Shown here piece after piece: positions 36,430 to 39,121 of a DNA stretch of 64,000 nt. A model generated the notes under the pieces. The model made no database searches and was not told the DNA's origin. It was given only the letters and a program-made list of their open reading frames with translations. Position 1 is the stretch's first letter. The number at the start of each line of letters is the position of its first letter. The position numbers were made by a program, and so were the translations under genes. Source of the DNA: Fimbriimonadaceae bacterium (lineage in GTDB: Bacteria; Armatimonadota; Fimbriimonadia; Fimbriimonadales; Fimbriimonadaceae); NCBI GenBank assembly GCA_023957775.1, contig JAMLGR010000012.1, forward strand, positions 62,001-126,000, read 5' to 3'.

Positions 36430-37602
36430 ATGTTTGCGCTTTTCGCGGCGATGTTCGCGCTCTCCGGCCTCCAGAACCCGAGCCTGGACCAACGTGTGGC
36501 TTCGGTTCTCCCGACCGCCGCGGAAGACGCTTGGTTGAAGATTCCGTGGCGCGTCGACCTGATGCAGGCGCGGCGCGAGGCGGCGGAACTGCACAAGCCG
36601 CTCTTCCTCTGGACGATGAACGGCCACCCGCTCGGCACCACGTGAACCAAGGGGCAGATCGGCCGTGCGTCGATCTTCAGCCAACCCGAAGTGATCGAGC
36701 GACTCCGGCGCGATTTCGTGCCGGTGGCGGGGAACCTTCGCGAACTGCAGGGGCCCGACACCCCGGTCGCGCACTGGTTCGTGGCCATGGCCCGGAAGCT
36801 CAACTACCACGTGGACATGGGCGAGGAGGCCGAGGGCTACTACGTGTTCGGGCCCGACGGGGCGCCGTTCGCCTTCACCGACTGGCAATCCGCCGAGAAA
36901 GTGGTCGAAACTCTGGACGAAGGACTGTCGGCATCGCGCAAGCACCCTTCGGCGAATCCCGATTTCGGTGGTCCGTCCCCTCGACCGAAGCCGCCCGCCG
37001 AAACCGGGACGTCGGTGCTTCGCTCCTACGCCCGCATCCGACCGGTGCCGGAGGGGGCGAACCCCATCAACCGAAGCATCGGACGCGACCACATTTGGGT
37101 GTATCCGGAAGAGATCGCCGCTCTCTCCGCCCACCAAGTCGGCGATGCGTTCGATCTGCCCGCGACCTTTGCCGCGCGCCTCGCCCGCTTTCACTTGATC
37201 GACAACGTGCGTGGGGAGCCCGACATGTGGCTGCCGGAAGAGGTGCGCAAAGCCTCGTTCCAGGTGCATGTGCTCGCCCGGGAAGGTTCGGTGCTGCGTT
37301 TCGGACTCGAGGGGGAGTTTGCGCAACAGAACGCCGCGGGGAATCGCGGGCAGAGCGGAACGCTCGCGGCCGAGTTCGCCATCGACACCGCCGCGCGGAG
37401 GATCGTGCGGTTTCGAGGGTACAGCGAAGGGATCGCCTGGGGCTCGGCGATCGGGACGAAGTGCACCGAACTCGCACCGCCGGGCAAATACCCGTTGATC
37501 ATCGCACTGGTGGAGACGGACGATCCGGTCGCGCAACTGGTGCCGCCGCAAGCCGCCTCTCTCGCAGGAGAGTATCGCAAGCCTCGGATCGGGAGTCGCT
37601 GA
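36430..37602 (+). CDS. candidate selenoprotein, thioredoxin-like N-terminal region, UGA at codon 72
   Basis: 391 codons with a TGA at 36643-36645 as codon 72. The same frame stays open for 318 codons after it. The N-terminus is a signal (MFALFAAMFALSGL). Residues 50-100 look thioredoxin-like: AAELHKPLFLWTMNGHPLG before the UGA, then RASIFSQPEV and RLRRDFVPVAGN after it. A hairpin of bacterial SECIS type starts 10 nt after the UGA. The rest (residues 180-390, VLRSYARIRPVPEG onward) is unassigned. The alternative is a nonsense-mutated pseudogene, but the neighbouring Sec-thioredoxin gene makes recoding more likely. No Cys lies within three residues of the UGA. Confidence 0.75.
36656..36676 (+). 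promoter_or_regulatory. putative bacterial SECIS element
   Basis: 8-bp stem AGATCGGC (36656-36663) with GTCGATCT (36669-36676), including one G-U pair, and the 5-nt apical loop CGUGC. The loop begins 18 nt after the UGA and has G as its second base. Both facts agree with the published bacterial SECIS model (loop 16-37 nt from UGA, G among its first two bases). Confidence 0.65.
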
Positions 37603-38190: not shown

Positions 38191-38567
38191 TACAGGTCGG
38201 CCTTCTTGACCCCTAACTGAACGGCTTGGATCGGGTTCCCGTCGGGATCCCGAAAGGTGAGCGAAGTGCCTTGGGGAAGCTCGTAGTAGTCCGCATCGAC
38301 GTCGGCGCCGGCGGCGACGAGCTTCTCGCGCAACGCCTTCACGTCCGGGGTTCGAACACCGACGACCCATCCCTTCTTGGCCACCGCATACGGGGCGGAC
38401 GCCCCTTCGAGGGGAGGGTGCAGGCCCAGCGCCCCGCCCTCCAGCTCGAAGTGCGACCAGTACGGACTCACGACCGCGGGCTTCAGCCCGAGCACGTCGC
38501 GGTAGAAGGCCACCGAGCGATCCATGTCGGATGTCTGGCACCACGTGGTCTCAAACCCCGCGATCAC
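38190..38567 (-). CDS. VOC family (glyoxalase/bleomycin-resistance fold) protein
   Basis: 125 residues from GTG, overlapping the stop of the Sec-thioredoxin gene (GTGA). Two beta-alpha-beta-beta-beta modules: the first begins MIAGFETTWCQTSDMDRSVA and FYRDVLGLKPAVV, the second includes VVGVRTPDVKALREKL and ends SLTFRDPDGNPIQAVQLG. Metal-binding positions are plausible but unverified. Members isomerise, cleave or bind small molecules, and the function here is unknown. Confidence 0.88.
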   Translation of the reverse strand: MIAGFETTWCQTSDMDRSVAFYRDVLGLKPAVVSPYWSHFELEGGALGLHPPLEGASAPYAVAKKGWVVGVRTPDVKALREKLVAAGADVDADYYELPQGTSLTFRDPDGNPIQAVQLGVKKADL

Positions 38568-39121
38568 CGAAGCCCGCCTCTCTTTTGCGCCTTGAGAAAC
38601 GCCTCCAACTTGTCGAGTTCGGCCTTGGTGGCGCGGGGCGCCCCTTTGCGAACCATCTCCATGAAGTGCGCGATCTCTTCGGGTTCCATCGGATGCCCGA
38701 TGTTGCCGCCCTTCTCGCCGGGGCGGATCGAGTTGAGGATCATCTTGCCGTCCGCGTCGAGCATCGCGGTGAACGGCAATCCGGCTTTGTCTCCCCCAAG
38801 GTCGGCCATCAGCTTGGCCCCTCCTGGGTTCTCGGTAGCCTTCTTGTCCCCGCTTTCCAAGACGGTGACATACACTCGTACGAAGTATCGATCGAAAAAC
38901 GGTTTGAACTGCTCCTGGTTCAAAACGGCATCCAGCCGTTTGCACCACCCTCACCACGAGGCGTGGAAGATGACGAAAAGGCTCTTCTTCTGGGCGCGGG
39001 CCTCTTGCTTGGCCGCCGCAAGGAGAACGTCCGTGCTCTTGGGCTTGGAAGGCGTCTGGCTCATCGCGCTTCCCACAAGGACCAGCAACACGGCGAGCGT
39101 GGAGAGTGGGCGGATCTTCAT
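38564..39121 (-). CDS. candidate selenoprotein: secreted thioredoxin-like protein with UGWC active site
   Basis: 186 codons from the ATG at 39121, with TGA at 38953-38951 as codon 57. Signal peptide: MKIRPLSTLAVLLVLVGSAM. The thioredoxin-like core reads KSLFVIFHASW, then UGA, then GWCKRLD, so the UGA replaces the first Cys of a CGWC redox motif and the second Cys (residue 60) is intact. The frame continues to a normal stop, ending LEAFLKAQKRGGLR. A 7-bp SECIS-type hairpin follows at 16-nt spacing. It probably acts as an extracytoplasmic thiol oxidoreductase. First gene of an operon with VOC and PAS genes; a leaderless TAAAAT box lies 6 nt upstream. Confidence 0.82.
38923..38941 (-). promoter_or_regulatory. 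putative bacterial SECIS element
   Basis: On the minus strand AAACGGC (38941-38935), loop TGGAT (38934-38930) and GCCGTTT (38929-38923) form a perfect 7-bp stem. The loop starts 16 nt after the UGA and has G as its second base, at the lower limit of the published bacterial SECIS spacing. Confidence 0.7.

Follow-up and report, generated by a model that had tools for sequence, protein, structure and literature searches.

A UGA-containing gene and its surroundings

The window analyzed here, a 64,000-nucleotide stretch of a Fimbriimonadaceae contig (JAMLGR010000012.1), contains on its plus strand a reading frame at 36430-37602 in which 71 codons are followed by TGA as codon 72 (36643-36645), 318 further open codons, and a terminal TGA at 37600-37602, just as the first-pass annotation, made from the sequence alone, had described. 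Considering this frame with its one internal TGA and the TGA at the same column in homologues (see below), we regard it as a selenoprotein gene encoding 390 residues, with selenocysteine (Sec) at position 72. The product starts with a hydrophobic N terminus, MFALFAAMFALSGLQ, at about residues 1 to 19 (36430-36486), a probable export signal that has its counterpart in a hydrophobic start in relatives. This is followed by a thioredoxin-fold domain at about residues 30 to 174 (36517-36951) and a C-terminal beta-barrel domain at about residues 186 to 390 (36985-37599). A SECIS-like hairpin, with its stem at 36656-36663/36669-36676 and the loop CGUGC at 36664-36668, lies downstream of the UGA on the same strand. 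In addition, a GTG at 36691 opens its own 303-codon frame; because this frame stands alone, a gene in two pieces was conceivable, and homologues decide the matter.

The annotation had counted this gene as the second with an in-frame UGA, which is right, given that a Thioredoxin_7 domain selenoprotein gene with an in-frame TGA (38951-38953; HASWUGWCKR, UxxC) occurs on the minus strand at 38564-39118. The latter is presumably the first of the two, and it is closely followed on its strand by a glyoxalase-like gene. Judging from its position, the UGWC thioredoxin is a possible partner of the selenoprotein at 36430-37602. Profile comparison of the family with this neighbor returned nothing, and the contigs of the closest relatives end at the family genes.

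Homologues, Sec machinery and the downstream hairpin

To place the gene among its relatives, homologues were collected, with matches in 18 of the 41 genomes searched (its own and 40 relatives) and, in a class-wide search, in 54 of 113 genomes. Nearly all strong homologues hold exactly one TGA, aligned to one column, and most full-length homologues have TGA at that column, as does a paralogue that the genome carries at C1:142290-143384 (45% identity). The class-wide search gave 56 UGA hits, one of which was a chance match, leaving 55 UGA members. The homologue comparison proposed in the first-pass annotation revealed proteins that run through as one, with UGA, and once Cys, at the column, so that the in-frame UGA is conserved and aligns with Sec or Cys as in bacterial selenoproteins. 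The only Cys homologue seen is L009 (CDDC), whose genome also carries UGA copies. Ser occupies the Sec column in L200 and L202, and Asp occupies it in L018, the remainder of the protein being retained; all three genomes are without detected SelA. Asp is also found at this column in L017, although its genome has SelA. The occurrence of Ser or Asp instead of Cys in three SelA-less genomes suggests that Cys substitutes poorly for Sec here, and these replacements make the value of selenium at the site testable.

Among the 55 UGA members of the class, 43 carry Cys at -2 (C-T-U) and 9 carry Cys at -1 (HCU or ACU), while neither Cys is present in three, namely, the window gene (Thr), L026 (Ser), and L022 (Met). 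The annotation had described TTU followed by Thr, with no nearby Cys; this holds for the window gene but not as a family motif, which is typically GHPxxCTUNNG with CxU, and the window member is an exception within its family. Phylogenetically, the window gene clusters with L026 and L204, though with only moderate support (95/45), the L204 sequence beginning just past the UGA column, so that its own -2 residue lies outside it. Moreover, a subfamily in which Cys has moved beside Sec (FGDPRGHCUQNG) comprises L025, L192, L194 to L199, L201, and L203.

The search for tRNA-Sec and Sec machinery suggested in the annotation found all components present in the genome, including tRNA-Sec (76.5 bits; UCA anticodon by ARAGORN), SelB (365 bits), SelA (505 bits), and a Sec-type SelD with its own UGA in CAGUATK, consistent with a bacterial selenoprotein. 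Across the 113 class genomes, the UGA form was almost wholly limited to those with SelA, being found in 34 of 60 SelA-positive genomes versus 1 of 53 others (Fisher P = 2e-11, with kinship ignored), and the sole UGA-form genome without SelA, G041, is 73% complete. Furthermore, on three planctomycete contigs (L066, L075, and L123), SelD fusion, SelA, and SelB genes are found close to the family gene, and on a fourth (L163), SelD fusion and SelA genes are; the fusion combines a pyridine-nucleotide oxidoreductase with SelD, and representatives of these neighbors were confirmed with Pfam. Beyond the Sec-machinery genes of these four contigs, a search for recurrent neighbors hinting at function returned only small groups of common-looking families.

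The claimed hairpin proved exact, with 8 bp, the loop CGUGC, and a loop start 18 nt past the UGA. In the window gene alone, the hairpin is not significant, as 9% of synonymous recodings also give all eight pairs, and z-scores against shuffled sequences ranged from +0.5 to -2.0, varying with the stretch folded. Because single-sequence fold z-scores are too weak for proving a SECIS, a register test was used instead, based on a gapless alignment from the UGA of 129 non-redundant members and on synonymous recoding as the null, which preserves the protein and the codon usage of the gene. Results revealed that the register with stem 15-20/26-31 and loop 21-25 (U = 0) had 77% of cells paired, versus 60% after recoding, and was the best of the hairpin registers at z 13.5, the next best reaching 8.0; G22 of the loop was invariant among the 129 members. 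Taken separately, the other phyla give z 10.0 for this register, and the class itself gives a weaker z of 4.0. A folding-energy test of 156 members gave a modest shift (mean z of -0.50 versus -0.12 in control windows; P = 1e-5). The SECIS-like hairpin is family-wide, with one register conserved beyond coding constraint, and it stands shortly after the UGA, where bacterial selenoproteins have theirs.

Decoding of the UGA as Sec, the family, and the fold described below are all supported by computation. We consider it highly probable that 36430-37602 encodes a two-domain selenoprotein, likely exported, in which UGA-72 is decoded as Sec via the hairpin and which would have a redox role.

Predicted fold and active site

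The joined protein, with Cys standing in for Sec, was modeled with a mean pLDDT of 92.7. Its N-terminal domain (residues 30 to 174) has a thioredoxin fold, with VIA Z scores of 13.5 for 3f9u (the highest, over 126 residues), 12.7 for ERp18, 11.9 for AGR3, and 9.9 for DsbD-gamma. The thioredoxin-like stretch noted in the annotation was borne out by the structure check that it had proposed, residue 72 sitting between core strand 58-63 and helix 73-82, immediately ahead of the latter. The distance separating Sec from F-S-x-P-x-V suggests that Sec-72 replaces the first Cys of CxxC, with Gly in place of the second, the exact correspondence of the active sites being a prediction from motif spacing. 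The motif is UTKG in the window protein and UNNG in most relatives, unlike a classical CxxC with two redox-active residues. With a chalcogen kept at the first CxxC position only, the protein may work in a thioredoxin-like manner without being a classical CxxC member. This UxxG, a lengthened loop ahead of the active site, and the additional C-terminal domain distinguish it from the DsbD-gamma, ERp18, and AGR-type proteins, whose fold the N-terminal domain shares (Z of 9.9 to 12.7).

The C-terminal barrel was modeled alone with a pLDDT of 94.2. Its best structural matches, OmpA (Z of 5.9) and Rv2717c (Z of 5.4), are within the usual noise, and structure comparison found no clear solved relative. 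Kinship of the barrel with OmpA, nitrobindin, or lipocalins is not claimed at Z scores under 6.

Based on these features, a mechanism can be proposed. SelB with Sec-tRNA would decode UGA-72 as Sec, with the hairpin that follows at 18 nt as its guide, and Sec would substitute for the N-terminal, attacking Cys of the thioredoxin active site, yielding UxxG in place of CxxC. The selenol would then attack an extracytoplasmic substrate, either a disulfide or a peroxide. For most relatives (C-T-U), the Cys two residues upstream could close a selenenylsulfide, which another thioredoxin-type protein would subsequently reduce, while the window protein (T-T-U), without that Cys, would act through its single selenol, with a thiol from outside the protein completing the resolution step. 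Conceivably, the C-terminal barrel binds the substrate or a partner.

Alternatively, the protein could be a selenoprotein whose Sec binds a metal or a selenium species and performs no redox catalysis. Absence of a resolving Cys from the window copy and the rarity with which Cys stands in for Sec would fit such a role, but the thioredoxin fold, the Sec at the usual active-site position, and the presence of CxU or CU in 52 of the 55 class members speak against it, making it unlikely.

Known families, distribution and alternative readings

Comparison with known families returned no Pfam match for the window protein, and three of 27 family members touch Thioredoxin_7 (best E value, 0.003). NCBIfam gave only matches far below cutoff, to the VPGUxxT and Trx7/PDZ families. 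A sequence search of the PDB with the family profile returned nothing. The Trx7/PDZ family (NF041199) is similar in having a Thioredoxin_7-like domain with Sec plus an additional C-terminal domain, but its listing (PMC13188914) gives CxxU and a PDZ domain; the window protein did not match it, one of the 27 members matched below cutoff (E value, 0.001), and PDZ models matched none of them. Similarly, the thioredoxin-like selenoprotein Sec.1 (CxU, PF13192; PMC13188914) shares CxU in a thioredoxin-like protein, but PF13192 was matched by 0 of 27 members. Moreover, the GHPxxCTUNNG signature characterizes none of the 119 prokaryotic selenoprotein families inventoried in 2026 (PMC13188914) and none of the nine new deep-Sep families (PMC12013277). 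Literature searches for the motif in the texts accessible returned nothing relevant, and an earlier mention elsewhere is conceivable.

Could the gene instead belong to a remote branch of the known VPGUxxT family (NF041382 and NF041383; OS_HP5 in PMC13188914)? Both are thioredoxin-like with a single Sec, and the weak NCBIfam matches, reflecting weak profile similarity around Sec, do cover the Sec-containing stretch. However, the window protein scored at best 16.7 bits against a cutoff of 275, the best E value among the 27 members was 4e-6, the VPGUxxT type 2 cutoff was reached by 0 of the 291 genomes of the phylum, and the alignment extends over only about 60 of the 287 profile positions. In addition, the present family differs in its GHPxxCTUNNG motif and in its longer protein with a C-terminal barrel. 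Membership in VPGUxxT is thus distinctly improbable.

To describe the range of the family, we scanned a genome collection with an exact DNA pattern for H/N-P-x-x-C-T-U-N-N-G; a single-sequence search for related loci had found no relative, whereas this pattern, running through the TGA, did. The signature was detected in at least 116 contigs, whose records bear names from Planctomycetota, Verrucomicrobiota, Armatimonadota/Fimbriimonadales, Chloroflexota, Poribacteria, Latescibacteria, and others, and among the matches listed, all 117 occurrences lie in frames with the same surroundings. As the pattern demands Cys at -2, the scan is uninformative on the frequency of that Cys. Metagenome bins account for many of the records, and the naming is doubtful in a few cases; for instance, a record named Methanoregulaceae archaeon (L127) carries a Fimbriimonadia-type copy with the same motif-region sequence as class genome G011 and is probably a misnamed or mixed bin. 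On one planctomycete contig (L077), two family copies share a strand and are separated by about 1.1 kb.

The annotation's suggestion of a new selenoprotein family is supported by the UGA homologues, the Sec machinery, the SelA dependence, the conserved hairpin, and the lack of any Pfam or NCBIfam model above threshold. It is probable that the gene represents a large family, apparently without a name so far, of exported selenoproteins with a thioredoxin fold, GHPxxCTUNNG, and a C-terminal beta-barrel. This family would extend across several phyla and have kept Sec where the partner Cys was displaced (CxU to CU) or disappeared (TTU, STU, and MTU). If so, these variants would offer a natural series for testing the capacity of a lone selenol, and the selenoproteins known from Planctomycetota, Verrucomicrobiota, Armatimonadota, and Chloroflexota would be joined by genes that ordinary gene callers would split at the UGA.

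Two further readings dispense with Sec. UGA-72 might be a true stop in a split or decaying gene whose downstream part starts at GTG 36691, as the 303-codon frame from there and the commonness of long chance frames in this 66% GC window would allow, but this is very improbable, given that dozens of divergent homologues retain both halves and share the single TGA at the same column, and given the dependence of the UGA form on SelA. Hardly credible at all is translation of the UGA as another residue by general reassignment or suppression, for which a frame open through the UGA would look identical, since the window gene itself ends in TGA, the Sec machinery is complete, and aligned members have no Trp at the column, the sole thiol-keeping one having Cys.

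Besides the selenoprotein family represented at 36430-37602, another thioredoxin-like frame with an in-frame TGA (DDEFCUTNARTLRA) was observed in L205 (G032:C10:4374-6583). In its relatives L207, L208, and L212, a Cys appears aligned with the U (CANARTLRA), and this group may constitute a further selenoprotein family.
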